NCBI GenBank assembly: GCA_014799925.1
Contig: JAAVHC010000051.1
Coordinates: forward strand, 1-41,127
Reading direction: 5' to 3'
DNA from: Oscillibacter sp.
Lineage (GTDB): Bacteria > Bacillota > Clostridia > Oscillospirales > Oscillospiraceae
Length of the DNA: 41,127 bases
A program made the position numbers and the translations under genes. Shown in pieces: positions 1,056 to 14,951 of the stretch. The notes under the pieces were generated by a model. That model did not search any database. It was given only the letters and a program-made list of their open reading frames with translations, and was not told the DNA's origin. Each line of letters opens with the position of its first letter. Position 1 is the first letter of the stretch.

Positions 1056-1778
1056 TTACGAATTGGATTCAAATGCAGGTTGATTCTCCTTTTTCGCCGC
1101 CCGCTCCCGCTCCGCCTGACTCAGGCGGAGATACACCGGGGTCAGCTCCTGGGCGGACACGGCGCCGCCCGGCCAGAGACGCCAGGCCGCCAGGCCTACG
1201 CCCACGGCGCTCTGGAGCCGCAGATGAGCCGGGGCCAGCCGGCAGGGGAGGCCCCGCGACCCGAGGAAATCAAAACACAGCCGCGCTCCGTCGCCCACGA
1301 TGGTCAGCGGACCGTCCAGCTCCGCCAGGTCCCCGGCGGCCTCCTCCAGGGAGACGGCCCGGTCCTCCCGCAGGCGGGTCAATTCCCCGGCCTCCGCCCG
1401 GAACACGGCGTTGTAGATCTGCTGCCGCCGGGCGTCCATGGCGCACACGATGTTCCCCTCCAGGTGGGCCAGGGGCCAGGCCATGGCCTCCAGGGTGGAC
1501 ACGGGGACGCAGGGCTTCTCCGCCGCCCAGGCCAGACCCTTGACGGCGGCGGCGCCGATGCGCAGTCCGGTGAAGGACCCCGGCCCCGCCGCGACGGCGA
1601 CGGCGTCCATATCTTCGACGGACAGCTCGCTGTTTTTCAGCAGGTCCTCCACCATGGGCAGCAGGGTCCGGCTGTGGGTCAGGCCGGTGGCCTGCCACGC
1701 GGCGGCCAGGACCTCGCCGTCCGCCAGCACCGCGCAGGAGGCGGCCCTGGCGGAGCTTTCCAATGCCAGCAATTTCAT
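1056..1778 (-). CDS. tsaB: tRNA threonylcarbamoyladenosine biosynthesis protein TsaB
   Basis: A 240-aa member of the ASKHA-fold TsaB/YeaZ family, the non-catalytic partner of TsaD in making t6A37 of ANN-decoding tRNAs. The N-terminal LALESSARAASCAVL strand, the GLTHSRTLLPMVEDLL helix and the signature AVAAGPGSFTGLRIG near residue 65 are all present. The length is normal for the family. It starts 5 bases after the tsaE stop, so the two genes are surely co-transcribed and probably translationally coupled. The expected partner TsaD is not in the window. Confidence 0.95.
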   Translation of the reverse strand: MKLLALESSARAASCAVLADGEVLAAAWQATGLTHSRTLLPMVEDLLKNSELSVEDMDAVAVAAGPGSFTGLRIGAAAVKGLAWAAEKPCVPVSTLEAMAWPLAHLEGNIVCAMDARRQQIYNAVFRAEAGELTRLREDRAVSLEEAAGDLAELDGPLTIVGDGARLCFDFLGSRGLPCRLAPAHLRLQSAVGVGLAAWRLWPGGAVSAQELTPVYLRLSQAERERAAKKENQPAFESNS

Positions 1779-1783
1779 TCGCC

Positions 1784-2206
1784 TTATACTCCCTCAATGG
1801 TAATTTCCCGCCAGTCCTCGTGTTCCGGACACCGGGAAATGGTCACGGTGATCACCGGCTGCGGGAGCGCTCCGGCGATCCGTTCGCTCCACTCCACGGC
1901 GCATACGCCGCCGCGGGTCAGATAGTCCTCCCAGCCGATGTCAAAGAGCTCCTCCTCGCCCCCCAGGCGGTACATATCGAAGTGGAACAGGGGGATGCGT
2001 CCCTCGTATTCGTTCACAATGGTAAAGGTAGGGCTGGTGACCCGGCCCTGAAAGCCCAGGCCTCTGGCAAGGCCCCGGGTGAACGCGGTCTTGCCCGCGC
2101 CAAGATCGCCCAGATAGGCGACCACATCCCCGGCCCGCAGCCGGCGGGCAAGCAGTTCGCCCGCCTGTTCCGTTTCCATCTCGTGATGGGAGAGGAAGGT
2201 CTCCAT
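1784..2206 (-). CDS. tsaE: tRNA threonylcarbamoyladenosine biosynthesis ATPase TsaE
   Basis: The 140-aa P-loop ATPase belongs to the TsaE/YjeE family and works with TsaB and TsaD in t6A synthesis. The Walker A motif GDLGAGKTAFTRG sits near residues 34-46. The family segments SPTFTIVNEYEG, LFHFDMYRL and AVEWSERI follow. The start at 2206 is chosen because it has the AGAGG ribosome binding site and gives the standard length. An upstream in-frame ATG at 2380 would add 58 residues with no similarity to the family. An extended -10 promoter candidate lies at 2250-2258. Confidence 0.95.
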   Translation of the reverse strand: METFLSHHEMETEQAGELLARRLRAGDVVAYLGDLGAGKTAFTRGLARGLGFQGRVTSPTFTIVNEYEGRIPLFHFDMYRLGGEEELFDIGWEDYLTRGGVCAVEWSERIAGALPQPVITVTISRCPEHEDWREITIEGV

Positions 2207-2249
2207 AGCATTGTACCTCTTTCTCCGCCGCTGTGCGGCACATAAGATG

Positions 2250-2258
2250 ATTGTACCA
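2250..2258 (-). promoter_or_regulatory. Candidate extended -10 promoter for tsaE-tsaB-upp
   Basis: On the minus strand the sequence reads TGGTACAAT, an extended -10 element about 45 bases upstream of the tsaE start. No good -35 hexamer is seen at 17 bases, so this rests on the extended -10 alone. Confidence 0.4.
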
Positions 2259-2382
2259 TAAAATTCCAGGGGATAAAAGAGCTTTTTCAAAAAAGCCGGC
2301 CGCCGCGCGCATAATTTCCGCCGCGGCACGCAAACTATCCGCGGCAACACCCGAACACAACCGGAATAAGGAGGACACACAC

Positions 2383-2574
2383 ATGAGCAATTGCACCAAC
2401 AGCGGCTGCGCCTGCACGCCCAACCGCTCCATCCACTGCAGCGTCAATTCCTGCGCCCATCACTGCAAGAACGAGCAGTACTGCGGCCTGGACACCATTC
2501 AGGTGGGCACCCACGAGGCCAACCCCACCGTGAGCCAGTGCACCGACTGCGAGAGCTTCAAGCTGCTGCAGTAA
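2383..2574 (+). CDS. DUF1540 domain protein, small cysteine-rich
   Basis: The 63-aa protein is rich in cysteine, with motifs CTNSGCACTPNRSIHC, CAHHCKNEQYC and CTDC that match the DUF1540 family common in Clostridia and Bacilli. The cysteine spacing suggests a metal-binding fold, but no function is established. A strong AAGGAGG lies 8 bases before the ATG. The gene stands alone between tsaE, which is divergent, and the TauE genes. Its 3' flank carries two inverted repeats (2574-2597 and 2633-2650) and a 31-base dispersed repeat. Confidence 0.85.
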   Translation: MSNCTNSGCACTPNRSIHCSVNSCAHHCKNEQYCGLDTIQVGTHEANPTVSQCTDCESFKLLQ

Positions 2575-2597
2575 TGCTCATTCCAAAGGAATAAGCA
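2574..2597 (+). terminator. Hairpin overlapping the end of the DUF1540 gene
   Basis: An imperfect inverted repeat, ATGCTCATTCC with GGAATAAGCAT, begins at the last base of the stop codon. There is no U-run after it, so it may be an mRNA-stabilising or weak terminator hairpin. Confidence 0.4.
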
Positions 2598-2632
2598 TTG
2601 ATTCTGCGCGGCGTGTGACTCCGCGGCCAAAT

Positions 2633-2650
2633 GCCGGCCCCAGGGCCGGC
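2633..2650. repeat. Perfect 8-bp inverted repeat
   Basis: GCCGGCCC and GGGCCGGC flank a 2-base centre between the DUF1540 gene and the TauE genes. It could act as a terminator stem or a protein site. No U-tract follows. Confidence 0.5.
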
Positions 2651-2657
2651 GCTACAT

Positions 2658-2688
2658 ATTATTTCCGAGCTTTAAGGCCGGAAGCAAT
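2658..2688 (+). repeat. 31-base dispersed repeat, copy 1
   Basis: The 31 bases here match the reverse complement of 33351-33381 at 30 of 31 positions. Both copies lie 3' of a gene in the sense orientation: the DUF1540 gene here, pckA there. The core TTCCG...CGGAA can pair. It resembles a short REP-like intergenic element. Confidence 0.75.
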
Positions 2689-2706
2689 CATGAGAGGGGC
2701 CCTGGT

Positions 2707-3063
2707 ATGACGGACAAACGGAAAAATCAGATTGCCGGGATTGCCGGAGGCCTGGCCAGCGGCCTGTTCGGCGGCGGAGGCGGCATGATTTTGCTGCCGC
2801 TGCTGGTGAAATGGCGAAAGCTGGAGGACCGGAAGGCCTTCGCCACCTGCGTAGCGGTGATCCTGCCCATGTGCTGCGTGTCGGCGGTGGTCTATCTGTG
2901 GCAGGGGAGGCCGGAACCGGCGCTGCTGTGGCCCTATCTGGCGGGCGGCGTCGTGGGCGGCGTCATCGGGGGCATGAGCTTTGAAAAGGTGCCGGTGCGG
3001 ATATTGAAGGTGATCTTCGGGCTGTTTTTGCTCTATGGCGGGGTGAGATATCTGTTATGGTAG
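2707..3063 (+). CDS. TauE/SafE-type permease, first half-size subunit
   Basis: A 118-aa membrane protein with about three or four hydrophobic segments. It carries the glycine-rich GIAGGLASGLFGGGGGMILLPLL motif region typical of one repeat of the TauE/SafE (DUF81) permeases, which export sulfite or organosulfur anions. Full permeases have two such repeats in about 250 residues, so this is one half. A GAGAGGGG ribosome binding site precedes the ATG. The next gene overlaps its last codons and encodes the second half, so the two products probably assemble into one transporter. The substrate is not known. Confidence 0.85.
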   Translation: MTDKRKNQIAGIAGGLASGLFGGGGGMILLPLLVKWRKLEDRKAFATCVAVILPMCCVSAVVYLWQGRPEPALLWPYLAGGVVGGVIGGMSFEKVPVRILKVIFGLFLLYGGVRYLLW

Positions 3064-3434
3064 AGTGGATGCTTCCGTTTCTGGCGGCGCTGGCCACCGG
3101 CGCGCTGTCCAGCTGGGGCGTGGGCGGCGGGACGCTGCTGCTGGTGTGCATGACCCTGTTTCTGGGCGTGGGGCACCGGGAGGCCCAGACGATCAACCTG
3201 CTGTTCTTTCTCCCTACCGCGGGGATCAGCCTGTTTTTTCACCGGAAGAACGGTTTTCTGGACAAGGAGACCTGGAAGGAGGCCGCCCCGCCGGGCGCGG
3301 CGGCGGCGCTGGCCGGCGCGCTGATTTCCTTTGCGGTGGATGTGTCGCTGCTGCGGAAGCCCTTCGGGCTTTTCCTCCTGTACGGAGGAGCGTCGATGCT
3401 GCTCAGCGGAATAAAGAAGGGAGGCCGCCGGTAG
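3057..3434 (+). CDS. TauE/SafE-type permease, second half-size subunit
   Basis: A 125-aa membrane protein homologous to the preceding one. It has the repeat motif ALSSWGVGGGTLLLVCMTLFLG near residues 17-38, and its ending GLFLLYGGASMLLSG parallels GLFLLYGGVRYLL of the first protein. The ATG lies within the last codons of the upstream gene, a 7-bp overlap that implies translational coupling. Its stop codon sits inside an 11-bp perfect hairpin (3419-3444). It is most likely a heteromeric partner of the first half. Simple gene fission of a canonical two-repeat permease is the alternative reading. Confidence 0.85.
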   Translation: MVEWMLPFLAALATGALSSWGVGGGTLLLVCMTLFLGVGHREAQTINLLFFLPTAGISLFFHRKNGFLDKETWKEAAPPGAAAALAGALISFAVDVSLLRKPFGLFLLYGGASMLLSGIKKGGRR

Positions 3435-3444
3435 GCGGCCTCCC
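3419..3444 (+). terminator. Hairpin at the end of the TauE pair
   Basis: GGGAGGCCGCC and GGCGGCCTCCC form an 11-bp perfect stem around the stop codon, with a 4-base loop. It is a likely transcription stop or mRNA 3' end between convergent genes, though the T-tract is short. Confidence 0.6.
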
Positions 3445-3478
3445 TCGCTGCACGATTTCTCATCGTCTGAAATATTGT

Positions 3479-4903
3479 TTATGAATCATCCCTTTGATTC
3501 AATATATTTCTTACAATCCAGGCAATCATTGTTTTCCTTACTATTCTGCGATATTCCATATATTTATCCGAAAACTCTTCAAATATCGGATTCAAATATG
3601 GATTCAAGCTGAAATCAAATTCAAAAAACGAAAATTCTCCGGAATGAAATAATTTTGACCGTATTTCATACATGTCGTCAACATAACTTTTTTTAGCGGA
3701 TGGACAATATTCCTTCACAAACGCTGAATAACTCAATCCTTCTGCTTTTGCCAGGCTTTCAACGCTTGCGACTAAAAGCGCAATTTGGAAAGACGATGCG
3801 TTCATTCCAATTATGGCGCTCATATTGTATAGTCTGGAGCTGTTTCTGAAATATTTCTTCTTTTTATCGTCCAGGTTATCTATTCCCCTGAAATACGCTC
3901 TTATACATTTGGGAATTTGTATTTCCTGTCCAAAGAAGAAGAGGTCTTCCATGATTTCGTCCGCGTATTCCGGCTGGGATTTGGGAACTTTTTCTAATCT
4001 GTGCTTTTCAAATACTTCCTCGATATGTTTCGTATTTCCATAGCTTTGAATCAAATTCACATCACTGTCATCCGGAAATTTTATGGAAATGACCCCGCTG
4101 TCCAGGTTTTCTCCTTTTTTCGCGTCAGCCAGCGTGGTTAACCCATTCATATTATTTTTTATAACGAGATTTAATTCCCCGTCTACAAACGAAGTACGAT
4201 AACGTTCATGTGAGATATTTCTCTGACAATGTGCGTCAAAGGACAGCCTTGCAAAGTTGCGGTATATGGATTGCGGCTCATAAAAGCTGACGTCCAGTAA
4301 AACTGACAGATATCCGGCGAAATCAGCCACAATATTATATGCTCTCGCTCTTGCCTCCTGAATATTGGCAGCCTTTATTTTTACATCGAACGCCACAATT
4401 TGTTCCGTAAGAGGCTCTGATCTTTCCCCATGGCCAATCGCATGAAAAATCAGATTGCAATTTTTTAAATTAAATGAATACGTACCTTTTATAGGGTACG
4501 AATTGTACATCAGTTTGTAAATTCTTACCGTCTTGGGCTTATCATTTTCAGATCGGATTTCCTGAATGGACCTGTATATATCAAGATTCTCATAATAGTA
4601 TAATTTCACATCCATTGTGTAATCAGTCAAATCGTCCTCGCACTGATATATGCCTAACTTTACTTCATAAACAGTCTTTTCATCATACTCCAGCACTAAA
4701 TTCATCCTGACCTGGCTGTTACGCATATCATCTGAAAAATCTGCCGTCACGATAACATGTCCATTATCGTTCTTACTGGCATGAAAAACCTCGCACTTCT
4801 TATACAAAACATGTTTTACCAAATTAATTACATCTATTCCCTTGCAATCAATATCATTCAGTACTATGGGATAATGAATCCCTTCCGCAACGGCTTCATT
4901 CAT
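3479..4903 (-). CDS. AT-rich HEPN-domain protein, ApeA-like
   Basis: The 474-aa protein is probably soluble. Its C-terminal third contains a helical region with LLVASVESLAKAEG followed by MYEIRSKLFHSGEF. The R415-X4-H420 pair in this stretch is the HEPN ribonuclease signature, in the form seen in ApeA-like HEPN domains. The N-terminal two thirds are beta-rich and I do not recognise them with confidence. The start at 4903 has AGAGAGG upstream; an in-frame start at 4954 overlaps the LacI gene and lacks support. The gene is strikingly AT-rich and uses codons such as ATA and AAT freely, unlike all neighbours, which points to horizontal transfer. By analogy with ApeA it could be an antiviral RNase, but that is inference. 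Confidence 0.7.
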   Translation of the reverse strand: MNEAVAEGIHYPIVLNDIDCKGIDVINLVKHVLYKKCEVFHASKNDNGHVIVTADFSDDMRNSQVRMNLVLEYDEKTVYEVKLGIYQCEDDLTDYTMDVKLYYYENLDIYRSIQEIRSENDKPKTVRIYKLMYNSYPIKGTYSFNLKNCNLIFHAIGHGERSEPLTEQIVAFDVKIKAANIQEARARAYNIVADFAGYLSVLLDVSFYEPQSIYRNFARLSFDAHCQRNISHERYRTSFVDGELNLVIKNNMNGLTTLADAKKGENLDSGVISIKFPDDSDVNLIQSYGNTKHIEEVFEKHRLEKVPKSQPEYADEIMEDLFFFGQEIQIPKCIRAYFRGIDNLDDKKKKYFRNSSRLYNMSAIIGMNASSFQIALLVASVESLAKAEGLSYSAFVKEYCPSAKKSYVDDMYEIRSKLFHSGEFSFFEFDFSLNPYLNPIFEEFSDKYMEYRRIVRKTMIAWIVRNILNQRDDS

Positions 4904-4946
4904 CGGAATATTTCCTCTCTTTATATTTGTTTTGGCAGGCGGGAGC

Positions 4947-5954
4947 CTATTCAAGGACCCGGCAGGAGGACCTCTCGATAAGCGTCGGCGTGAGGATCCG
5001 ATGGGTATACCCCGCCAGCTCGCTCTGGATCTTATCCAGCAGGCTGTCCACCGCCACGGAGGCCAGCATCTTCATGGGCTGCTCGATGGTGGTCAGATTG
5101 ATGCGGGGGAGGCTGCTGTACCGGATGTTGTCAAAGCCCAGAAGGGATACGTCCTCCGGAATGCGGACGCCGCTCTCCTCCGCGGCCTCGATGATCCCCA
5201 GCGCGTTGGTGTCCGTGGCGGCGAAAATGGCGGTGAAGCGCCGCTCCTGGGCGAACAGCTGCTTGGCCAGCTGGTAACCGTATTTAATAGAAGTCAGGGG
5301 GAAGGTGTTGTTGCAGTACTGGGGCGTCAGGCCCAGGTCCTGACAGGCGGCGGCGTAGCCCTCGGACCGGAGCTGGTGGGTGGTGCTGCCCCGGCGGCGG
5401 CCAAAATACAGGATGGCCCGATGGCCCAGGCCGTAAAGGTATTCCACGCCGATGTACGCGCCCCGGTAATTGTCCACGGAGACATAGCTCTCCGGGACCT
5501 CCCGCAGGTTTTCCCCCACGAACACCGTGGGGAGGCGGGAGAGGTAGGGGCGCAGCTTCTCGTAGCTCTCCGGGCCGGAGGGCACCAGGATGATGCCGTC
5601 CACCTGCCGGCCGATCATCAGCTCGAACAGCTCCTTCTCCTGCTCCAGATCGCGGGAGGAGTTGCATAAAATGATATTGTATCCCCTGGCGCGGGCCTGG
5701 CGGTCAATGTGATACGCCAGCTCCGACATGAAGGGGTTGTTCACTCCCGTCAGGATCAGGCCCAGCAGCTTGGTGCTCTTCATCACCATGGCGCGGGCCA
5801 CGGTGTTGGCGGTGTAGTTCATTTCCTTGCATACCTGGAGGATGCGCTCCCGGGTGTCCACGCTGATTTCCGGACTGCCGGACAGGGCGCGGGAAACGGT
5901 GGAGTAGGACACACCGGCCGCTTTTGCTACATCTTTGATGGTCACATTCTTCAT
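4947..5954 (-). CDS. LacI-family transcriptional regulator
   Basis: The 335-aa repressor has an N-terminal helix-turn-helix, VTIKDVAKAAGVSYSTVSRALSG, with the hinge helix around TANTVARAM near residue 50. A periplasmic-binding-type sensor domain fills the rest. The ATG at 5954 is preceded by ACGGAGG. It is divergent from the four-HAD gene cluster, and a CG-centred palindrome lies downstream of the cluster promoter, so it most likely controls that cluster. The AT-rich HEPN gene follows on the same strand after 43 bases with no clear terminator, so it may share this transcript. The ligand cannot be deduced, although the family usually binds sugars or sugar phosphates. Confidence 0.93.
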   Translation of the reverse strand: MKNVTIKDVAKAAGVSYSTVSRALSGSPEISVDTRERILQVCKEMNYTANTVARAMVMKSTKLLGLILTGVNNPFMSELAYHIDRQARARGYNIILCNSSRDLEQEKELFELMIGRQVDGIILVPSGPESYEKLRPYLSRLPTVFVGENLREVPESYVSVDNYRGAYIGVEYLYGLGHRAILYFGRRRGSTTHQLRSEGYAAACQDLGLTPQYCNNTFPLTSIKYGYQLAKQLFAQERRFTAIFAATDTNALGIIEAAEESGVRIPEDVSLLGFDNIRYSSLPRINLTTIEQPMKMLASVAVDSLLDKIQSELAGYTHRILTPTLIERSSCRVLE

Positions 5955-5980
5955 ATGCCGACCTCCGTTACGAAAATAAT

Positions 5981-5995
5981 CCGAAACCTTTTCCG
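5981..5995. promoter_or_regulatory. Possible autoregulatory LacI-type site
   Basis: CCGAAACCTTTTCCG is an imperfect palindrome with GAAA and TTTTC arms, located between the regulator's promoter and its start codon. The arms resemble the AAACGTTT site at 6311, but the CG centre is lost, so assignment is tentative. Confidence 0.3.
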
Positions 5996-6002
5996 TAAAA
6001 TG

Positions 6003-6031
6003 ATTGTAAGGCTTGCCGCACGAAATTGCAA
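6003..6031 (-). promoter_or_regulatory. Promoter of the LacI-family regulator
   Basis: On the minus strand TTGCAA and TACAAT are separated by exactly 17 bases. The -10 element is about 50 bases before the start codon. Confidence 0.65.
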
Positions 6032-6261
6032 GAGCCATTTGCTCAAATTTGGATATTTTCTGTACTTATGCACAGTTTATAACGGGGAATATCCGTCAAA
6101 AAGACGGAAATTGACTAAAGACCGGAAGACTGCGGAGGATTGGCCGGAAGTTTTTCGAAAACATCAACGGAAGAACCGGGAATATTGCCGGAATCCAGTA
6201 AAAACAAAAGCATTTCCCGCGAGACGGGCAGCTTTTTCAATGGAGACAGCTGGGAACGCTG

Positions 6262-6290
6262 TTGACAAATCCAAAAAAATGAGGTACAAT
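6262..6290 (+). promoter_or_regulatory. Promoter of the HAD gene cluster
   Basis: A consensus -35 TTGACA and a -10 TACAAT are 17 bases apart, about 65 bases before the first HAD start codon. This is one of the strongest vegetative promoters in the window. Confidence 0.85.
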
Positions 6291-6310
6291 CTGGACATCG
6301 TAAGGAACGG

Positions 6311-6318
6311 AAACGTTT
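6311..6318. promoter_or_regulatory. Candidate LacI-family operator
   Basis: AAACGTTT is a perfect CG-centred palindrome, the hallmark core of LacI-family operators. It lies about 20 bases downstream of the -10 element of the HAD cluster promoter, a position suited to roadblock repression. The regulator is divergently encoded next door. Confidence 0.6.
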
Positions 6319-6355
6319 GAACCGACGAACGCCGGAGAAGGGAGGCGCGGGGGCG

Positions 6356-7120
6356 ATGATCCGGGGTGTTTTGTTTGATCTGGGCGGCACGCTGCATGTG
6401 ACCGATTCGCCGCCCGGGCGGGACGTATGGTTTGCCCGGCGGCTGCTGGACCGGCTGGAGGACTATGGCATCCGGCTGGATGTGCCGCCGGAGGTCCTGG
6501 CGGAGAAGCTCTATGAAAACGGGGAGGCGTACAAGCGCCACTCCGAAAAGGATCTGAGGGAGCTTCCCACGGCGGATATCTGGAACGACTGGTACCTGCG
6601 GGACTGGTCCATTGGCCGGGAAAAGCTGGCGCCCATAGCGGAAGAGCTGAGCTTTCTCTATGACTATGAGCGGCTGCGGCCGCTCCGCAGGCCCTACATA
6701 AGGGAAACGCTGGACGCTCTGCGGGCGCAGGGGATGAAGCTGGGGCTCATCAGCAATATCATCTCGCTGTCGGTGGCGCCCCACTTCCTGGCGGAGTACG
6801 GGGCCAGGGAGTATATGGACTGCATTGTGCTCTCCAGCGTCACGGGCATCCGGAAGCCGTCGCCGGACATCTTCCGGGCGGCGGAGCGGGAGCTGGACCT
6901 GAAGCCCGAAGAATTGGCCTATGTAGGCGATACGCTGTCGAGAGACGTGCTGGGCGCCAGGAACGCCGGATGGCGGCTGATGATTCAGATCAGGAGCGCC
7001 AGCGGAGCGAAACGGGATAAAGGGCTGGAGCATTCCGGCCTGGAGCCCGATTATATCATCCGGGAACTGAACGAGATCCCGGAAATCATCCGCAGGGAGA
7101 ACGAGGAGGAGAAGGAATGA
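6356..7120 (+). CDS. HAD-superfamily protein 1 of a four-gene array
   Basis: A 254-aa HAD-fold protein. Motif I is D8-L-G-G-T, with Gly where phosphatases have the second Asp. Motif II is LGLISN, motif III is the Lys in GIRKPSPDIF and motif IV is YVGDTLSRDVLGA. A helical cap lies between motifs I and II and includes IWNDWYL. The ATG at 6356 is preceded by AAGGGAGG; an upstream ATG at 6317 lacks a ribosome binding site. It is the first gene after the promoter and overlaps the next gene by 4 bases. It is the most diverged of the four paralogues. The substrate is unknown, and without the second Asp ordinary phosphatase activity is doubtful. Confidence 0.85.
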   Translation: MIRGVLFDLGGTLHVTDSPPGRDVWFARRLLDRLEDYGIRLDVPPEVLAEKLYENGEAYKRHSEKDLRELPTADIWNDWYLRDWSIGREKLAPIAEELSFLYDYERLRPLRRPYIRETLDALRAQGMKLGLISNIISLSVAPHFLAEYGAREYMDCIVLSSVTGIRKPSPDIFRAAERELDLKPEELAYVGDTLSRDVLGARNAGWRLMIQIRSASGAKRDKGLEHSGLEPDYIIRELNEIPEIIRRENEEEKE

Positions 7121-7848
7121 ACCGCAACATTGATACCATTTTCTTTGACGTGGGCGCCACGCTGCGATTCGTGGTGGAGGACGAGGAATTTTCCGCCGCC
7201 GCCGACAGGGCTCTGATGGAGCTGGTGGGCGCGGCGGAGCCTCACGACGTGTTTTTTGAGAAGCTGACGAAGAACTGGAAGGCCTACCGCAAATGGGCCA
7301 AGGATATTCTGCTGGACGTATCTGAAATGGAGCTGTGGCTGCAATATCTGCTGCCGGACTATCCTGCGGAGCGGGTCGCGCCTAACGCCGCCCGGCTGAC
7401 CCGGCTGTGGCGGGACCACGACGGCCGCCGCGTGCCCCATGACGACGTGAAGGAGACCCTGCGGGAGCTGAAGCGCCGGGGCTACAAGCTGGGCATCATC
7501 GCCAACACCATCACTGAAACCGAGATCCCCGACTGGATGTGCCAGGACGGCGTGGCGGACTGCTTCACCACCGTGATCCTCTCCTCCAAGGTGCGTCTGC
7601 GGAAGCCGGACCCGGCCATCTATCTGCTGGCCTCCCGGTGCATCGGCTCCCCGCCGGAGAACTGCTCCTACGTGGGCGACAACCCGGTGCGGGACGTGGA
7701 GGGCGCGGTGGACGCCGGCTATGGCAGCATGATCCTCTATGAGGACGCCGGCACTGCCGACCGGGAGGGCAAGGCCCCCACCGTTATGCCGGACTACCGG
7801 ATCAAGGCCATCCGGGAGCTGCTGGACCTGTTCCCGCCCCGGTCCTAG
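7117..7848 (+). CDS. HAD-superfamily protein 2 of a four-gene array
   Basis: A 243-aa HAD protein. Motif I reads D11-V-G-A-T, again with Gly at the second Asp position. Motif II is LGIIAN, so the usual Ser/Thr is Ala. Motif III is RLRKPDPAIY and motif IV is YVGDNPVRDVEGA. The cap region has YRKWA and MELWLQYLL, shared with proteins 3 and 4. The start overlaps the stop of gene 1 (ATGA), which implies coupled translation. With both motif I and motif II altered, it is the best candidate in the set for a binding or regulatory role rather than catalysis. Confidence 0.85.
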   Translation: MNRNIDTIFFDVGATLRFVVEDEEFSAAADRALMELVGAAEPHDVFFEKLTKNWKAYRKWAKDILLDVSEMELWLQYLLPDYPAERVAPNAARLTRLWRDHDGRRVPHDDVKETLRELKRRGYKLGIIANTITETEIPDWMCQDGVADCFTTVILSSKVRLRKPDPAIYLLASRCIGSPPENCSYVGDNPVRDVEGAVDAGYGSMILYEDAGTADREGKAPTVMPDYRIKAIRELLDLFPPRS

Positions 7849-7935
7849 GCGGACGGCCGGTTTCGCTCTGGAGCGCGGCGCAGGACCAGGGCGGCCGCGC
7901 GGCGGTGGAAATTTATTTCTGACTGAGGAAACATT

Positions 7936-8661
7936 ATGAAAAAGATTAAGGGCGTGTTTTTTGACCTGGGCGGGACCCTCCGCATCTTACATAAGGACGT
8001 GCCGGAGTACCGGGCCGCGGCCCGGAGGCGCATGGCGGAGCTGGCCGGCGCGGAGGACGTGGACGCCTTCATCGACATGGTGGAGGAGCGGTATCAGCCC
8101 TACCGGGACTGGGCCCTGTCGGAGAACAGGGAGTCCGGGGACTTCGAGCTGTGGGCCCGGTGGCTGCTGCCGGAGATGGACAGGGAGCGCACGGCGGCGG
8201 TGTGCCACGAGCTGACCTATCAGTACCGGCAGATCAAGGGGCGGCGGCATGTGGTGCCCGGCGGTTTGCAGGTCATCCGGGGGCTCTATGAGCGGGGCTG
8301 CCGGCTGGGCATCATCTCCAACCTGATCGGCGAAAACGAGATCCCCGACTGGCTCCGGGAGGACGGGCTGGCCCAGTATTTTGACGCGGTGGTGTTGTCC
8401 TCCGTGTGCCATATCCGCAAGCCGGACCCGAAAATCTATCAGATGGGCTGCGAGGAGCTGGGGCTGGAGCCGGGAGAGTGCGCCAGCGTTGCCGACAATC
8501 TGGACCGGGATATCACCGGGGCCAGGGCGGCGGGCATCGGGGCCAACATCCTGTTCATCAGTCCGGAGAAGCTGGCGAAGAAGACCATTACGGACGAGAA
8601 CCGGCCGGATTACATTGTGCATCAGTTCCCGGAGATCCTGGATCTTCCCATTTTGCAGTGA
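7936..8661 (+). CDS. HAD-superfamily protein 3 of a four-gene array
   Basis: A 241-aa HAD protein with motif I D10-L-G-G-T, motif II LGIISN, motif III HIRKPDPKIY and motif IV SVADNLDRDITGA, where the usual GD is AD. The cap has YRDWA and FELWARWLL. It is plainly paralogous to its neighbours on both sides. An 87-base spacer separates it from gene 2, and GAGGAAA serves as the ribosome binding site. The substrate is not predictable from the sequence. Confidence 0.85.
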   Translation: MKKIKGVFFDLGGTLRILHKDVPEYRAAARRRMAELAGAEDVDAFIDMVEERYQPYRDWALSENRESGDFELWARWLLPEMDRERTAAVCHELTYQYRQIKGRRHVVPGGLQVIRGLYERGCRLGIISNLIGENEIPDWLREDGLAQYFDAVVLSSVCHIRKPDPKIYQMGCEELGLEPGECASVADNLDRDITGARAAGIGANILFISPEKLAKKTITDENRPDYIVHQFPEILDLPILQ

Positions 8662-8678
8662 GAGGAACGGTACATCGT

Positions 8679-9410
8679 ATGGAAAAACAGATCAACACCA
8701 TTTTTGTGGACCTGGGGGACACCTTCCGGGTCATCCGCAAGGATGAGGCGTATCAGCGGGAGGCCAAGGAGACCATCACCCGGCTGCTGGGCGTGGACGA
8801 GGACCCCGTCGCGTTCTATCAGAACGTGATCGAGCCCCGGTATGACAAGTACCGGGAGTGGGCGCTGACCTTCTACTGCGAGGCTCCGGTGAAGGAGCTG
8901 TGGACCCGGTGGCTGGCCTATGATTACCCCAGGGAGCGGGTGGAGGCGGCGGCGGCCGAGATGACTTACGCCTACCGCAAGACCAAGGGAGAGCGGGTGG
9001 TCACCGACGGCGGCGTCGAGACCGTCAGGGAGTTGTACGCCAGGGGGTACACTCTGGGCATCGTCAGCGACCTGGTGGGCACCGAGGAGGTGGACGAGTG
9101 GCTGGACCACGACGGCCTGCGGCCCTATTTCAGGACCGTGCAGCAGTCCTCCGTGTGCCTCATCCGGAAGCCGCACCCGGCCATTTACTACTACGCCCTG
9201 GAGGAATGCGGGGCCGACCCCAGGCGGACCTGCTACGTGGGCGACAACCTGGCCCGGGACATTGTGGGCGCCAAGGCGGCGGGGCTGGGCATGACCATCG
9301 GGGTGCAGTACCCCGGCAAGAAGCCCCAGACCGTCACCGAGGAGAACAAACCGGACCGGTTTATCAGCCATTTCGCCCAGCTGCTGGATATTTTCCCGCC
9401 GCTGAAATAA
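8679..9410 (+). CDS. HAD-superfamily protein 4 of a four-gene array
   Basis: A 243-aa HAD protein. Motif I is D11-L-G-D-T, with Gly at the second Asp position and an Asp one residue later. Motif II is LGIVSD, motif III LIRKPHPAIY and motif IV YVGDNLARDIVGA. The cap has YREWA and KELWTRWL. The ATG at 8679 is 17 bases after the stop of gene 3 and has GAGAGGAA upstream; longer in-frame starts lie inside gene 3. The phosphoglycerate mutase gene follows after 15 bases, so it is likely in the same transcript. Confidence 0.85.
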   Translation: MEKQINTIFVDLGDTFRVIRKDEAYQREAKETITRLLGVDEDPVAFYQNVIEPRYDKYREWALTFYCEAPVKELWTRWLAYDYPRERVEAAAAEMTYAYRKTKGERVVTDGGVETVRELYARGYTLGIVSDLVGTEEVDEWLDHDGLRPYFRTVQQSSVCLIRKPHPAIYYYALEECGADPRRTCYVGDNLARDIVGAKAAGLGMTIGVQYPGKKPQTVTEENKPDRFISHFAQLLDIFPPLK

Positions 9411-9425
9411 AGGAGGCAGTTACAT

Positions 9426-10994
9426 ATGAGTGAACAGACGATTTCGCGGGGCGGCGAAGCGCTGGCCCAGGCGGTGGAGCGCGCGTATGCCCAGGGACAG
9501 ACCGATTACTACCTGGAGCCCCTGGCTCAGGTGGACGAGAACGGGGCCCCTGTCGGTAAGATCAGGGACGGCGACCAGGTGGTCTTCTGCTGCCGGAGAG
9601 GCGAGCGGGAGATCGAGCTGACCGACGCCTTCGTGGACCCCGCATTCCCGCATTTTGAGCGGGATTACATGAAGGACCTCAGCTTTGTCATCATGACCAT
9701 GTACCATGAGAAGTTCAAGGATCTGCCCATTGCCTTCGCGCCGGAAAAGGTGGTGAAGCCCCTGGCCCAGGTGGTAAGCGAGGCGGGACTGCGGCAGTTC
9801 CACTGCGCCGAGTCGGAGAAGTACGCCCATGTCACCTTTTTCTTCAACGGCGGCGAGAACCAGCCCTTCCCCGGCGAGACCGACCTGCGGGTCCCCTCCC
9901 CCAAGGGCATTCCCTTCGACCAGAAGCCGGAGCTGAGTCTGCCGGAGGTGGCGGAGAAGGTCATGGGGGCCGTGGACGAGGGCTATGAGTTCATTCTCAC
10001 CAACTTCGCCAACGGCGACGTGATCGGCCATACCTCCAACACGGAGGCGAAACTGGCCGCCGCCGCTGCCGTCAGCCAATACGTGGGCAAAGTGGCGGAA
10101 TACGCCAAAGAGCGCGGCTACGTGGTGGCCGTCACCGCCGACCACGGCAACATCGAGACATTATATAATAAGGAGGGCAAGCCCCACGTGGCCCATACCA
10201 CCAACCTGGTGCCCTTCGTCGTGCTGGACCCCCAGGGCAGGGAAGTCGCGCTGCGGGACGGACGGCTGGGGGACGTGGCCCCCACGGTGCTGGGCGTGCT
10301 GGGACTGGAGAAGCCGGAGGAGATGACCGGCGCCTCCCTCATTGAGACCGAGGGCTTCACCAATCAGAAGGTGATGCTCATCATTCTGGACGGCTGGGGC
10401 TACGGCACCGCCGACGATAAGGACGCCATCTATTCCGCCGACACCCCCGCCTGGGACGCCCTGCTGGCAAACTACCCCAACAGCAGGCTCCGGGCCTCCG
10501 GGGAGGACGTGGGGCTCCAGGCCGGGAAGCCCGGCAACTCCGAGGCCGGACACTCCAACCTGGGCGCGGGCCGCGTGGTGGCCCAGGACGACGTGCGCAT
10601 GGACCGCGCCATCCAGGACGGGTCCTTCAGGACCAACCCCGTGTTCCTGCGGGCCATCGCCAACGCGCGGGAGAACCATAAGCCCCTGCATCTGCTCAGC
10701 TACCTGACGGAGAAGTCCAGCCACGGGTGCATCGACTACCCCCTCATGCTGGTGGAGATGGCCGAGGGCGTGGAGGAAATCTATCTGCATATCATTTTTG
10801 ACGGCCGCAGCACCGAGCCGGGCTCCGCGCCCGCCATGCTCCGCGCGCTGGATAAGCGGCTGGAGAAGCTGGGCCGGGGGCGCGTTGTGGACGGCGTGGG
10901 CCGGGGCATCGCCCTGGACCGGGACGGCAACTACGCCAAAATTCAGAAGGCTTATGAGTGCATGACCCTGGGCAAGGGGACCCGGTATCGCTGA
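9426..10994 (+). CDS. Circularly permuted 2,3-BPG-independent phosphoglycerate mutase
   Basis: The 522-aa protein has every block of the iPGM (GpmI) family, but in swapped order. Residues 20-310 match the C-terminal half of a normal enzyme and residues 311-522 match its N-terminal half. B. stearothermophilus ligands map as follows: D12 to D322, nucleophile S62 to S372, H123 to H433, R153 to R461, R185 to R493, R191 to R499, R261/R264 to R58/R61, K336 to K132, D403 to D198, H407 to H202, D444/H445 to D239/H240 and H462 to H257. Spacing within each half is exact. The usually conserved D154 is S462. The break falls in the loop between YGEGPTYR-like and the next helix. AAAGGAGG precedes the ATG. 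It probably interconverts 2- and 3-phosphoglycerate, though a related substrate is possible. Confidence 0.9.
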   Translation: MSEQTISRGGEALAQAVERAYAQGQTDYYLEPLAQVDENGAPVGKIRDGDQVVFCCRRGEREIELTDAFVDPAFPHFERDYMKDLSFVIMTMYHEKFKDLPIAFAPEKVVKPLAQVVSEAGLRQFHCAESEKYAHVTFFFNGGENQPFPGETDLRVPSPKGIPFDQKPELSLPEVAEKVMGAVDEGYEFILTNFANGDVIGHTSNTEAKLAAAAAVSQYVGKVAEYAKERGYVVAVTADHGNIETLYNKEGKPHVAHTTNLVPFVVLDPQGREVALRDGRLGDVAPTVLGVLGLEKPEEMTGASLIETEGFTNQKVMLIILDGWGYGTADDKDAIYSADTPAWDALLANYPNSRLRASGEDVGLQAGKPGNSEAGHSNLGAGRVVAQDDVRMDRAIQDGSFRTNPVFLRAIANARENHKPLHLLSYLTEKSSHGCIDYPLMLVEMAEGVEEIYLHIIFDGRSTEPGSAPAMLRALDKRLEKLGRGRVVDGVGRGIALDRDGNYAKIQKAYECMTLGKGTRYR

Positions 10995-11024
10995 GAAGCC
11001 GCAAAGCGGTTGTGATCGGTCTGT

Positions 11025-11050
11025 CCCGCCGGCGTCCGGAAGCCGGCGGG
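11025..11050 (+). other. Hairpin between the mutase and mgtC-like genes
   Basis: CCCGCCGGC and GCCGGCGGG form a 9-bp stem 5 bases before the mgtC ribosome binding site. Without a U-tract it is more likely an mRNA structure affecting translation or processing than a terminator. Confidence 0.45.
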
Positions 11051-11068
11051 GCGAAAGGAGCAAATACG

Positions 11069-11794
11069 ATGTTATTAGTGGAATATCTCAACAATCAGTT
11101 CTCCATTGCGCAGAATCTGGACTTCTTTTTCCGGATCATCGTGGCCTGCCTGTGCGGCGCGCTGATTGGCGCGGAGCGGAGCAAGCGCTTCAAGGAGGCG
11201 GGCGTGCGCACCCATATCATCGTCTGCTGCGCGGCGGCGATCATGATGATCGTGTCCAAGTACGGCTTCGCGGACCTGACCTCGGAGGCCGGCAATTTCA
11301 ACGGCACCAGAGGGGCGGACCCTGCCCGTGTGGCGGCCCAGGTGGTCAGCGGCATCAGCTTTCTGGGCGCGGGCGTCATCTTTAAATACGGCAGCACGGT
11401 CAAGGGTCTGACCAGCGCCGCCGGATTGTGGGCTACCGCCGGCATCGGTCTGGCCATTGGCGCGGGCATGTATCCGCTGGGTATATTCTCCGCCGTCCTG
11501 ATCGTGATTCTGCAAATCCTGATGCACAAGTTTGTAGTAGGGGCGGACTCGCTTTCCAGCAACCACCTCGCGTTCACCATCCGCACGGAGATGGAGCTGC
11601 GGGAGATTATGGAAGCTTACGTAGGGGACAGCAGGATGCAGATCTCGGACGCGAAAATCGTCTATCATGACGACGGATTTGTAACCTACGACTTTATCCT
11701 GCGGCTGACCCGGGATATTTCCATCTCTGAGCTGACCCGCCTGCTCAAGTCTCATGGGGAGGTCCGGAGCGTCAGCGTCATCCCGGTCAGCTGA
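11069..11794 (+). CDS. MgtC/SapB family membrane protein
   Basis: A 241-aa protein with an N-terminal membrane domain of about four or five helices and a C-terminal soluble ACT-like domain. The family motifs GALIGAERSKRFKEAGVRTH near residue 30 and ISFLGAGVIFKYG near residue 98 are clear. MgtC-type proteins are linked to magnesium limitation and membrane potential or ATP homeostasis in other bacteria; the exact role here is unknown. AAAGGAG lies 8 bases before the ATG. It follows the permuted mutase gene on the same strand, and a long hairpin follows it. Confidence 0.9.
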   Translation: MLLVEYLNNQFSIAQNLDFFFRIIVACLCGALIGAERSKRFKEAGVRTHIIVCCAAAIMMIVSKYGFADLTSEAGNFNGTRGADPARVAAQVVSGISFLGAGVIFKYGSTVKGLTSAAGLWATAGIGLAIGAGMYPLGIFSAVLIVILQILMHKFVVGADSLSSNHLAFTIRTEMELREIMEAYVGDSRMQISDAKIVYHDDGFVTYDFILRLTRDISISELTRLLKSHGEVRSVSVIPVS

Positions 11795-11819
11795 CAGGAG
11801 AACTGAACAGCCTTTAAAA

Positions 11820-11848
11820 CCGCCTCCGGCTTGACAAGCCGGAGGCGG
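11820..11848 (+). terminator. Hairpin downstream of the mgtC-like gene
   Basis: CCGCCTCCGGCTT and AAGCCGGAGGCGG form a perfect 13-bp stem with a 3-base loop. The plus-strand flank lacks a strong T-run, while the minus strand has TTTTAAA, so the direction of termination is unclear. It separates the mutase/mgtC unit from hppA. Confidence 0.6.
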
Positions 11849-11929
11849 AACAAATCAAAGGGAAGAATAGCAGGGAGGAGGGAAATATTTTTAGCGCCGT
11901 CAAAACATAACTGTAAAGGAGAAAAGAAA

Positions 11930-14041
11930 ATGAATCAGTACTTTATCATCTTTTCGGCTTTGGGTTCCATCTGCGCGCTCCTGTTTGCCGTGTGCATGGC
12001 AAAGCGCGCCCTCTCGTTCTCGGAGGGCACCGAGCGGATGAAGAAGATCGCGTCCTTCATCCGCTCCGGCGCGAACGCCTATCTGCGGCGGCAGTACAGC
12101 GTCGTCCTGGTGTTTTTTGTGTGCATGTTCGCCATCCTGTGCGTGATGGCCGCTCTGCACTTCCTGACCTGGTTTGTGCCCTTCGCGTTTGTCACCGGCG
12201 GGTTCTTCTCCGGCCTCAGCGGCTTTGTGGGCATGAAGATCGCCACCGCCTCCAACGCCCGCACCGCCAACGCCTGTCAGCAGAGCCTGAACTCCGGCCT
12301 GAAGGTGGCCTTCTCCGCCGGAACGGTCATGGGCTTCACCGTAGTGGGCCTGGGCCTGCTGGACATCTCCGGATGGTACATCCTGCTCAAGTATGTGTTC
12401 CAGCTGCCTCTCAATGAGATCACCGCCGCCATGCTGACCTTCGGCATGGGCGCCAGCTCCATGGCCCTCTTCGCCCGCGTGGGCGGCGGCATCTTCACCA
12501 AGGCCGCCGATGTGGGCGCGGACCTGGTGGGCAAGGTGGAAGCCGGGATTCCCGAGGACGATCCCCGGAACCCCGCCGCCATTGCCGACAACGTGGGCGA
12601 CAACGTGGGCGACGTGGCCGGCATGGGCGCGGACCTGTACGAGTCCTACGTGGGTTCGCTGATCTCCTCCTGCTCCCTGGGCGTGATTGCTTTCGGGTAC
12701 ATTGACGCGGTGGACGACCTCAGCGCCTTTGCGGTGCCCATGCTGATCGCGGCGGTGGGCGTGTTGGCCTCCATCATCGGCTCCCTGCTGGTCCGCACCG
12801 GCGAGTCCACCGATCAGATGACCCTGCTGAAGGCCCTGCGCCGTGGCACCAACACCTCCGCTATTATCATCGCGGTGGCCGCGTTCCCCATTGTGTGGTT
12901 CCTGCTGGGCAGGGAGTACATCGGACTGTACGTCGCCATCCTCTCCGGCCTCTTTGCCGGGGTGCTGATCGGGCGGTTCACCGAGTACTACACCTCCGAC
13001 ACCTACGTGCCCACCCAGCACCTGGCGGCCTCCTCCGTCACCGGCACCGCCACCCTGGTCATCGACGGCCTGAGCCTGGGCATGCGCTCCACCATGCTGC
13101 CGGTGCTGACCGTCAGCGGATGCATCCTCATCGCGTACTACGTCTCTGGACTGGGCCTCACCGGCGCGGCCCATGACGCCATGGGCCTGTACGGCATCGC
13201 TCTGGCGGCGGTGGGCATGCTGTCCACCCTGGGCATCACCCTGGCCACCGACGCCTACGGCCCTGTGGCCGACAATGCCGGCGGCATCGCGCAGATGAGC
13301 GGCCTGGACCCCGTTGTCCGGGAGCGCACCGACGCGCTGGATTCTCTGGGCAACACCACCGCCGCCACCGGCAAGGGCTTTGCCATCGGCTCCGCCGCCC
13401 TGACGGCCCTGGCCCTCATCGCCTCCTATGTGGAGAAGGTCCGCACCCTGGCCCCGGACATGGCGCTGGATATGAGCGTCATGAATCCGGTGGTGCTGGT
13501 GGGCATCTTCGTGGGCGCCTGCCTGGCGTTCATCTTCGCGGCCATCACCATGGGCAGCGTGGGCAAGGCGGCTCACAGCGTGGTGCTGGAGGTCCGGCGG
13601 CAGTTCAAGGAGATCCCCGGCATCATTGAGGGGACCGCTGACGCGGACTTCGCCCGCTGCGTGGACCTCTGCACCAGGGCCAGCCTGAAGGAGATGGTGG
13701 TGCCCACTCTGATTGCCGTGGGCGTGCCCATTGTGGGCGGATTGCTGCTGGGGCCCGCGGGCGTGATTGGGCTGCTGTGCGGCGCCACGGCCTCCGGCTT
13801 CCTGCTGGCGGTGTTCATGTCCAACTCCGGCGGCAGCTGGGACAACGCCAAGAAGTACGTGGAGTCCGGCCATTACGGCGGCAAGGGGAGCAAAAACGAT
13901 AAGTCCGCCATCGTGGGCGACACCATCGGCGATCCCTTCAAGGACACCTCCGGTCCGGCCATCAACATCCTCATCAAGCTGCTGAGCATGGTTTCCATTG
14001 TATTCGCCACCGTGGTGGTCAATTTCCACGTATTCGGTTGA
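11930..14041 (+). CDS. hppA: Membrane-bound ion-translocating pyrophosphatase
   Basis: The 703-aa integral membrane enzyme hydrolyses PPi and pumps H+ or Na+ across the membrane. Around 15 hydrophobic helices are visible. The catalytic signature DVGADLVGKVEAGIPEDD with PRNPAAIADNVGDNVGD lies near residues 195-230. The motif GNTTAATGKG near residue 474 has Ala where K+-independent enzymes have Lys, so it should be the K+-stimulated type. The ion cannot be told from this reading. The ATG at 11930 has AAAGGAG upstream; an earlier in-frame start lies in the preceding hairpin. Anaerobes use this enzyme to recover energy from biosynthetic PPi. Confidence 0.96.
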   Translation: MNQYFIIFSALGSICALLFAVCMAKRALSFSEGTERMKKIASFIRSGANAYLRRQYSVVLVFFVCMFAILCVMAALHFLTWFVPFAFVTGGFFSGLSGFVGMKIATASNARTANACQQSLNSGLKVAFSAGTVMGFTVVGLGLLDISGWYILLKYVFQLPLNEITAAMLTFGMGASSMALFARVGGGIFTKAADVGADLVGKVEAGIPEDDPRNPAAIADNVGDNVGDVAGMGADLYESYVGSLISSCSLGVIAFGYIDAVDDLSAFAVPMLIAAVGVLASIIGSLLVRTGESTDQMTLLKALRRGTNTSAIIIAVAAFPIVWFLLGREYIGLYVAILSGLFAGVLIGRFTEYYTSDTYVPTQHLAASSVTGTATLVIDGLSLGMRSTMLPVLTVSGCILIAYYVSGLGLTGAAHDAMGLYGIALAAVGMLSTLGITLATDAYGPVADNAGGIAQMSGLDPVVRERTDALDSLGNTTAATGKGFAIGSAALTALALIASYVEKVRTLAPDMALDMSVMNPVVLVGIFVGACLAFIFAAITMGSVGKAAHSVVLEVRRQFKEIPGIIEGTADADFARCVDLCTRASLKEMVVPTLIAVGVPIVGGLLLGPAGVIGLLCGATASGFLLAVFMSNSGGSWDNAKKYVESGHYGGKGSKNDKSAIVGDTIGDPFKDTSGPAINILIKLLSMVSIVFATVVVNFHVFG

Positions 14042-14069: not shown

Positions 14070-14951
14070 ATGAACGCTTACGACCTTATGATCATTGGCC
14101 CCGCCACGCGGGACCTGAACATCGACTACACCGGGGCGGAGGACCGCTCCACCGGCGGCGCGGTGACCTTCTGCACCCCTGCCGCCACGGCGGCGGGAGC
14201 GAAGGTGTTCGCCGCCGTCAAGATTTCTCTCGACGACGGGGACATCATCGAGGGCTTCCGCATGTCTCCGGAGGACGTCGCCCTGCTGCCCTCCGAAAAG
14301 ACTACTCTGATGAAAAACGTCTACTTCACTCCCGACCGGGAGCGGCGGGACGCCAGCTGTCCCGCCCAGTCGGACCCCATCCTGCCGAAGGAGATTCCGG
14401 ACGTGAACTGCCGCCTCTACCATCTGGCGGGACTGCTCTATGGGGACTTCCCCAATGAGCTGATCGAGTTTCTGCACGGAAAGGGGCTGGTGTCCGCCGA
14501 CGTGCAGGGCTTTCTGCGGCACAACGAGGAGGGGAAGCTCTGCTTCCACGACTGGGCGGATAAGCTGAAATATCTGCCCTATATGGATTTCCTCAAAACC
14601 GACGCCGCCGAGGCGGAGATCCTCACCGGCCTCACGGACCGCGCGGCGGCGGCCAGACAGCTCTACGCCTGGGGGGCCAGGGAGATCGTGATCTCCCACA
14701 ATACGGAGATGCTGGCTTACGACGGCAGGGATTTGTTCACCTGTCCGGTAAAGGCCCGGAACCTCTCCGGGCGGACGGGCCGGGGGGATACCACCTTCGG
14801 CTCCTACCTGGCCATGCGGATGACCGGGGCCGGGATGGAGGAGGCTCTGCTGTACGCCACCGCCTGTGTGTCCCTGAAGATGGAGACGCCGGGGGTATTC
14901 ACCGGTACGCGGGCGGACGTAGAGAACTACATCCGGGAATTTTACCAGTAA
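14070..14951 (+). CDS. PfkB-family carbohydrate or nucleoside kinase
   Basis: A 293-aa ribokinase-fold protein. The N-terminal DLMIIGPATRDLNID strand and GGAVTFCTPAATAAGAKV segment match the substrate-binding start of the PfkB family. The second signature, GRTGRGDTTFGSYLAMRM near residues 233-250, carries the catalytic Asp in GRGD. The substrate is not evident; fructose-6-phosphate kinases and adenosine or inositol kinases share this fold. It begins 28 bases after hppA and may be co-transcribed with it. A strong bidirectional hairpin follows. Confidence 0.85.
   Translation: MNAYDLMIIGPATRDLNIDYTGAEDRSTGGAVTFCTPAATAAGAKVFAAVKISLDDGDIIEGFRMSPEDVALLPSEKTTLMKNVYFTPDRERRDASCPAQSDPILPKEIPDVNCRLYHLAGLLYGDFPNELIEFLHGKGLVSADVQGFLRHNEEGKLCFHDWADKLKYLPYMDFLKTDAAEAEILTGLTDRAAAARQLYAWGAREIVISHNTEMLAYDGRDLFTCPVKARNLSGRTGRGDTTFGSYLAMRMTGAGMEEALLYATACVSLKMETPGVFTGTRADVENYIREFYQ

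Follow-up and report, generated by a model that had tools for sequence, protein, structure and literature searches.

A circularly permuted relative of phosphoglycerate mutase GpmI with a changed active-site pocket and a putative role in inositol-phosphate use in Clostridia

The phosphoglycerate mutase (PGM) GpmI moves a phosphoryl group within phosphoglycerate through a phosphoserine, as set out in the part of PMC5382265 drawn on here. According to the available part of PMC5931981, TM0415 converts inositol to myo-inositol monophosphate with pyrophosphate, and not ATP or ADP, as the phosphate donor, and its Km for myo-inositol is so high that the true acceptor in that pathway could be another compound. 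Here we analyze a locus with relatives of both proteins, located in the window, the whole stretch of 41,127 nucleotides from an Oscillibacter sp. contig (JAAVHC010000051.1, assembly GCA_014799925.1). An initial interpretation of this DNA from its letters (the sequence-only reading) had proposed that one gene encodes a GpmI with its two halves in reverse order. To our knowledge, a circularly permuted GpmI has not been described. A search of open-licence PMC on circular permutation together with phosphoglycerate mutase, iPGM/GpmI or the alkaline phosphatase superfamily gave no permuted GpmI among the titles and abstracts listed, and the main text of a PGM survey (PMC2964296) contains no term that starts with 'permut'.

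The gene, here called cpGPM (9426..10994, + strand), encodes 522 amino acids in a single frame. In a residue alignment to the solved GpmI 1ejj, its residues 15-306 (9468..10343) correspond to the former C-terminal part (1ejj 218-509), and residues 314-522 (10365..10991) to the former N-terminal part (1ejj 4-214), which carries S372, the Ser nucleophile, as well as position 154, discussed below as D154S; the 7 residues between them (307-313; 10344..10364) link the old C- and N-termini. Both halves match 1ejj over nearly full length once the order is swapped. This bears out the sequence-only reading, both in the reversal of two GpmI halves within one 522-codon frame and in where it had placed the join and the new termini. 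With both parent parts, of common ancestry, present in swapped order in one frame, cpGPM is confirmed as a true circular permutation of the GpmI chain order.

Profile matches agree with this arrangement of parts. The GpmI model TIGR01307 scored 482.3 bits against a curated cut-off of 330.65, but in two stretches, and the longer GpmI model NF003897 gave 404, below its cut-off of 862. PF01676 matched at 197.3 bits and, with the metal ligands, places the protein in the metalloenzyme (alkaline phosphatase) superfamily. The reversed halves depart from the N-to-C order of the GpmI family, and the Pfam domain iPGM_N is itself divided by the new termini. Since cpGPM passes the NCBI GpmI model, automatic annotation would probably name it gpmI, a label under which neither the permutation nor the probable change of function would be visible.

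A scan of GTDB genomes gave 79 loci from the best 80 of 572 confirmed stretches, and all near-locus counts in this work are based on this set. Of these loci, 64 (L004-L067, two of them from one genome) contained a permuted protein at 72-92% identity. Within these best 80 of 572 stretches, the permuted order was present in one frame and nearly full-length in 57 of the 64 near loci, the remaining seven being truncated or broken. The linker and the new termini were conserved in the near loci; linker length differed by about one residue between loci, and L050 lacked more of it. Titles of the near loci included Oscillospiraceae, Lachnospiraceae, Ruminococcaceae, Clostridia, Christensenella and similar names, and some isolate names mention rumen, omasum, ileum or faeces. 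In genome samples that overlap one another, the permuted gene was detected in 2/394 genomes at the order level and 2/391 at the class level, each time the window's genome and one more at 65% identity, and in 12/398 at the phylum level, the window's genome and eleven others at 42-45%. Ten of these eleven align in permuted order along almost all of the query; the eleventh is truncated. In all, 13 more distant carriers were identified, 12 of which are 93-100% complete.

An assembly join or frameshift, or a normal order of the same gene in relatives, had been named as grounds for doubting the permutation. The relatives lack the normal order in this gene, since the permuted order recurs in the near loci and in distant genomes at 42-65% identity, and many assemblies agree on its single frame. 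By their titles, most of the near relatives are metagenome assemblies; nothing was found in favour of an artefact. Given 57/64 loci in one frame (best 80 of 572), the 13 more distant genomes and the conserved linker and termini, assembly error was rejected, and we regard the probability of an assembly or annotation artefact as negligible.

A tree was built from 67 permuted and 40 normal sequences (the latter being 1ejj plus 39 sequences close to the query, which do not sample GpmI in full), and in it the permuted ones formed one group with support 1.0. Trees of the single halves, with 64 and 66 permuted sequences, supported this group at 0.998 and 0.995. Repeat copies (L003, L083-L086), the seven truncated or broken near loci and normal genes split over two frames were left out. 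Because the permuted sequences group as one, whether whole or by half, the permutation is taken to have occurred once among the sequences compared here, with the halves inherited together. A fusion of halves from different sources was rejected, as each half sets the permuted group apart alike. Two normal-order gpmI genes were observed in tandem on one strand of a Parcubacteria assembly (L068:5926-7581 and 7630-9258), an arrangement that may resemble the one from which permutation by a duplication route would begin.

Equivalents of D12, S62, D403, H407, D444, H445 and H462 were kept in 56/56 near and 12 other permuted proteins (L045 and L054, lacking the motif used for rotation, are outside this residue table), and His123, Arg153, Arg185, Arg191, Arg261, Arg264 and Lys336 were kept in all 68. 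The proposal that metal ligands and the Ser nucleophile are retained is correct for every one of them, but it hides a change in the pocket. Position 154 is Ser in 68/68 permuted and Asp in 40/40 normal proteins, so that cpGPM lacks this pocket residue of GpmI. Besides D154S, the substitutions G121S, V122S, S124G, M189L, E231Y, N259C, F260R, P262G, A265E and T334S were fixed in 68/68 permuted proteins, and D299H and G437Y were present in 67/68; these 13 positions in all part the 68 permuted from the 40 normal proteins and are near-fixed in both sets. F260R adds a positive charge beside Arg261. Several of the changed positions presumably adjoin residues that hold the substrate in GpmI, and we assume that Asp154 of GpmI has a role in binding and proton transfer. 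The part of PMC5382265 on GpmI metal sites and mechanism available here gives no role for Asp154. A changed substrate with kept chemistry would be the simplest reading of the pocket changes, and loss of Asp154 together with gain of Arg260 would fit a ligand more highly phosphorylated than 3-phosphoglycerate. Because neither the family order nor Asp154 was found, cpGPM is, judged by sequence, a circularly permuted sister family of GpmI and not GpmI proper.

The sequence-only reading had treated the gene as a central glycolytic enzyme. It had also suggested looking for a second, normal gpmI in carriers, and such a gene is present in the window's genome (on contig C1, G000:C1; an apgM over its cut-off is on contig C81) and in most near genomes. 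Among the other 47 near genomes, 34 had both halves of a normal gpmI (several pieces in G062, G078 and G096), 11 had the permuted gene alone and 2 had a gpmI fragment besides. In those 13 without a full gpmI, dPGM was over the cut-off in 5 and apgM in G077; the gpmI fragment of G067 was its one other PGM trace, and no other PGM was over the cut-off in G064, G068, G069, G086, G098 and G102, which may be incomplete (in G069, apgM was matched in part, at 99.6 bits). Thus, another PGM was found in 41/47 other near genomes, or 42/48 counting the window's (one by a gpmI fragment only). The 13 more distant carriers had a normal gpmI in 10 cases and apgM over the cut-off in the other 3. Overall, dPGM (TIGR01258) was over the cut-off in 5 of 14 near genomes tested and in 0/13 more distant carriers. 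As other PGMs occur in most carriers, replacement of a lost gpmI by the permuted gene was rejected as a general case. These occurrences, the fixed D154S and an operon that points to inositol speak against the glycolytic assignment, and cpGPM is probably not the glycolytic mutase of the cell.

In the window, cpGPM is preceded on the + strand by four genes of the HAD family: HAD1 (6356..7120, motif I DLGGT, start chosen by us), HAD2 (7117..7848, DVGAT, by family match), HAD3 (7936..8661, DLGGT, by family match) and HAD4 (8676..9410, DLGDT, start chosen by us), the last lying 15 bp ahead of cpGPM. A LacI-family regulator is divergent on the - strand (4947..5954, with the start chosen at MKNVTIKD in an ORF that runs to 6038). 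A 491-aa ORF without a Pfam match (3479-4954, - strand) adjoins the LacI gene. Downstream on the + strand are genes for an MgtC-family membrane protein (11069..11794) and a membrane H+-pyrophosphatase (11930..14041), both assigned by family match, and a PfkB-family kinase (14070..14951, motif RTGRGD) whose closest solved relative is TM0415. The pyrophosphatase gene lies between cpGPM and the gene of this kinase, which resembles a pyrophosphate-dependent one, a possible pyrophosphate link.

This organization is conserved among the near loci, counted from the best 80 of 572 stretches and, at each position, over loci with enough sequence. A HAD gene was immediately upstream of cpGPM in 54/54 loci, with the order HAD1-HAD2-HAD3-HAD4 in 52/54 and a median gap of 15 bp; a LacI-family gene was upstream on the other strand in 36/38, and the PfkB kinase was downstream in 39/42, where L035, scored as a miss, does show the kinase. 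MgtC and membrane H+-pyrophosphatase genes were detected downstream in 26/64 and 29/64 loci, many of which are short on that side. Of six longer stretches, five (L112, L114-L117) encode an ABC transporter upstream, together with HAD0 and a small membrane protein, and the sixth stops short of the transporter. By the families seen in L112, the transporter consists of a permease, an ATPase and a solute-binding protein. The L112 solute-binding protein had no PDB match by sequence, and thus it does not directly support uptake of a phosphorylated compound. A motif I pattern whose third letter could be G or D matched 216/226 HAD ORFs of related loci; all of these 216 are of the DxG type (DLGGT, DVGAT, DLGDT, DMGGT), and none of them reads DxD. 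Because motif I reads DxG and not DxD, calling these HADs phosphatases is uncertain; they may not be ordinary phosphatases.

A LacI-type operator-like palindrome, CGGAAACGTTTGAA, was found by motif scan before HAD1 (6308..6321, + strand), and is the sole site with up to two mismatches in the 41-kb window. The motif was derived by comparing 45 intergenic stretches and then scanned over 64 loci. With at most one mismatch, the palindrome CGnAAACGTTTGAG was present once each in 46/64 near loci (best 80 of 572), about 2-3.3 kb before cpGPM and, where mapped, between LacI and HAD1; one crude block shuffle used as a control gave 0 sites. Searching the window alone for CG-centred palindromes, with no preset motif, gave nothing clear. 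The palindrome also resembles CcpA cre sites. The front of the transporter operon in L112, L114, L117 and L128 had weaker sites only (1-2 mismatches), and a shared regulon with that operon is not claimed for this reason.

The kinase and the genomic context both point to inositol. The cluster kinase matched TM0415 (1vk4, 5ysp) over residues 6-278 with an E value of 4e-39. With residue roles taken from the available part of PMC5931981, the myo-inositol contacts D11, N78, Q141 and R145 and the basic pyrophosphate residues K171, R229 and R232 of TM0415 are kept in 47/47 kinases, the window's included. RTGRGD, a form of the motif RXGRGD, was present in 47/47. Of the five-residue signature K171, F221, R229, R232 and M266, four were found in 47/47 kinases, and position 221 is Val (39) or Ile (8) of 47, not Phe as in TM0415. 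Within the same genus, iolD was matched in 5/5 genomes with cpGPM vs 1/20 without it (the one being a fragment below the cut-off), a comparison not corrected for relatedness in which many genomes are incomplete. Forty of 43 further cpGPM genomes also matched iolD, bringing the total to 45/48 carriers, uncorrected for relatedness, with 43 of 45 over the curated cut-off; this occurrence links cpGPM to inositol catabolism. In 9 carriers, iolD was on the same contig within about 6-20 kb of cpGPM. The transporter operon, a neighbour of cpGPM in other genomes, was found in the window's genome on a separate contig, C62 (L128, G000:C62:20000-38000, at 1336-13544 of that stretch), adjoining iolG, iolD and iolE, the last at 409 bits and over the cut-off.

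More distant permuted proteins share the pocket signature and have surroundings different from those of the window's lineage. At 65% identity, L147 (G1223) keeps LacI, four HADs, MgtC and the RTGRGD kinase, and in L127 (G137) the stretch read shows a single clear HAD upstream and lacks a kinase. In L137, L138, L139, L142 and L146, permease and ATPase genes are directly before cpGPM (L143 is cut). In L142, a GntR-family gene and the genes for a cyclic 2,3-diphosphoglycerate synthetase relative (L142:3916-5253; 429.9 bits to 9sxb) and a solute-binding protein come before these two, and L137, L138, L139 and L146 have ORFs with like beginnings at the same places. The L142 solute-binding protein matched 8x1a first (named iron(III) binding protein), then 4r72-4r75 (named Fe3+ transport component), and also 6wce, a pyridoxal-phosphate-binding protein; its NCBIfam matches, to 2-aminoethylphosphonate binding proteins, were below the cut-off. 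We take 4r72-4r75 to be AfuA, a sugar-phosphate binder. In the part of PMC10690619 drawn on here, cyclic 2,3-diphosphoglycerate is described as exclusive to hyperthermophilic methanogens; bacterial L142 carries a close relative of its synthetase in an operon with an ABC transporter and a permuted GpmI. A second distant group consists of L140, L141, L144 and L145. Here, cpGPM is followed by a gene of the phosphoglucomutase family in L140, L141 and, judged by its beginning, L145, and no such gene was seen in L144. The L140 neighbour has PGM_PMM domains, with NCBIfam matches below the cut-off. A presumed RapZ-like gene is before cpGPM in L141, L144 and L145. No iolD or iolG match was found in the stretches read around the more distant relatives. 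Because these surroundings differ, the substrate may differ between lineages, or be a glycerate phosphate throughout; the permuted family probably handles more than one kind of organophosphate, or else one substrate common to these settings.

Taken together, cpGPM is best read as a GpmI paralogue that has been permuted and re-specialised and that, in this lineage, probably acts on inositol phosphates as a phosphatase or phosphomutase. For the window's lineage, we consider an inositol-phosphate substrate reasonably likely, with phosphatase and mutase activity about equally so. An old gpmI paralogue would have been permuted once and its pocket rewritten before the compared lineages split; the permutation, the tree group and the fixed changes are observed, and we infer the duplication route and the order of events. 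Because the two-metal, phosphoserine machinery is kept, S372 (Ser62 of GpmI) most likely still accepts phosphate: the two metals and S372 would take it from an organophosphate and then give it to water or another hydroxyl. With Asp154 gone, cpGPM may no longer return the phosphate to a glycerate hydroxyl, or may do so differently, which would favour either hydrolysis or transfer on a polyol ring that bears neighbouring phosphates. In such a pathway, an inositol phosphate would be imported, stripped or reshuffled in the cell by the HADs and cpGPM, and the resulting inositol would be passed to the iol pathway.

Other readings overlap with this one and with each other, and their probabilities need not sum to one. 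A second, ordinary PGM isozyme, permuted and still converting 3-PG and 2-PG, under LacI control, would be consistent with the retention of all catalytic and most phosphate-binding residues, with the TIGR01307 score, with the 6/47 near genomes that have no other PGM over the cut-off, and with the lineage in which cpGPM is beside a phosphoglucomutase-family gene. We nevertheless consider it unlikely, as D154S and the changes at 121-124 and 259-265 are fixed in 68/68 permuted proteins, another PGM was found in 42/48 near and 13/13 other genomes, and the operon includes HADs and an inositol-kinase-like gene. The synthetase relative, GntR-family gene and ABC transporter of the L142 operon, and the solute-binding protein matches (8x1a, 4r72-4r75, 6wce), would fit an enzyme that in all lineages acts as phosphatase or phosphotransferase on 2,3-bisphosphoglycerate or on phosphates feeding or draining cyclic 2,3-diphosphoglycerate, with an indirect inositol link. 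The gained Arg260 would fit a second phosphate. However, no such synthetase was recognised near the gene in the window's lineage, where inositol-linked genes are, and this role appears rather unlikely.

Less probable again is that the substrate of cpGPM is an intermediate of inositol breakdown that the kinase has phosphorylated (e.g., a phosphorylated inosose or sugar acid) and not an inositol phosphate itself. The kinase and cpGPM are neighbours on one strand, and the TM0415 Km, in the part of PMC5931981 mentioned above, leaves room for another acceptor; yet all four inositol contacts are invariant in 47/47 kinases. Returning to inositol phosphates as substrates, a bolder scheme, in our view rather improbable, would make cpGPM a permutation-made phosphomutase or phosphatase that works with four to five HADs and a reversible pyrophosphate-dependent inositol kinase, so that phosphate is turned into pyrophosphate and then into proton pumping. 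After stripping of imported inositol phosphates, cpGPM would move the last phosphate to a position accepted by the kinase, which would run backwards and conserve it as pyrophosphate; the membrane pyrophosphatase (nearby in 29/64 loci) would pump protons with that pyrophosphate.

In the permuted family, an altered chain order and a remodelled active site occur together in nature and are deeply conserved, so that one can ask if permutation made new chemistry possible. Were the inositol-phosphate role true, it would offer an entry to intracellular inositol-phosphate use by uncultured rumen and gut Clostridia and, possibly, to a pyrophosphate economy. The portions of work on gut inositol and phytate pathways available here (PMC7618129, PMC12482443) do not mention a permuted GpmI or a HAD operon.

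Compared with described systems, cpGPM is like GpmI (TIGR01307; 1ejj, 1o98) in having both halves, the two-metal site, the Ser nucleophile and the phosphate-binding Arg and Lys residues, but is unlike it in its reversed halves, D154S and ten other changes in 68/68 proteins, its genomic setting and its separate tree group. The cluster kinase resembles TM0415 in RXGRGD, K171/R229/R232/M266 and the four inositol contacts, differing at F221, and may be similar in function. The inositol and phytate pathways of gut Anaerostipes and Mitsuokella, as described in parts of PMC8355322, PMC7618129 and PMC12482443, likewise belong to anaerobic gut bacteria with inositol utilisation genes. In cpRAS GTPases (available part of PMC2430557), the motif order is rotated within a conserved fold, as it is in cpGPM, which has another fold and in which one Pfam domain, iPGM_N, is itself split.
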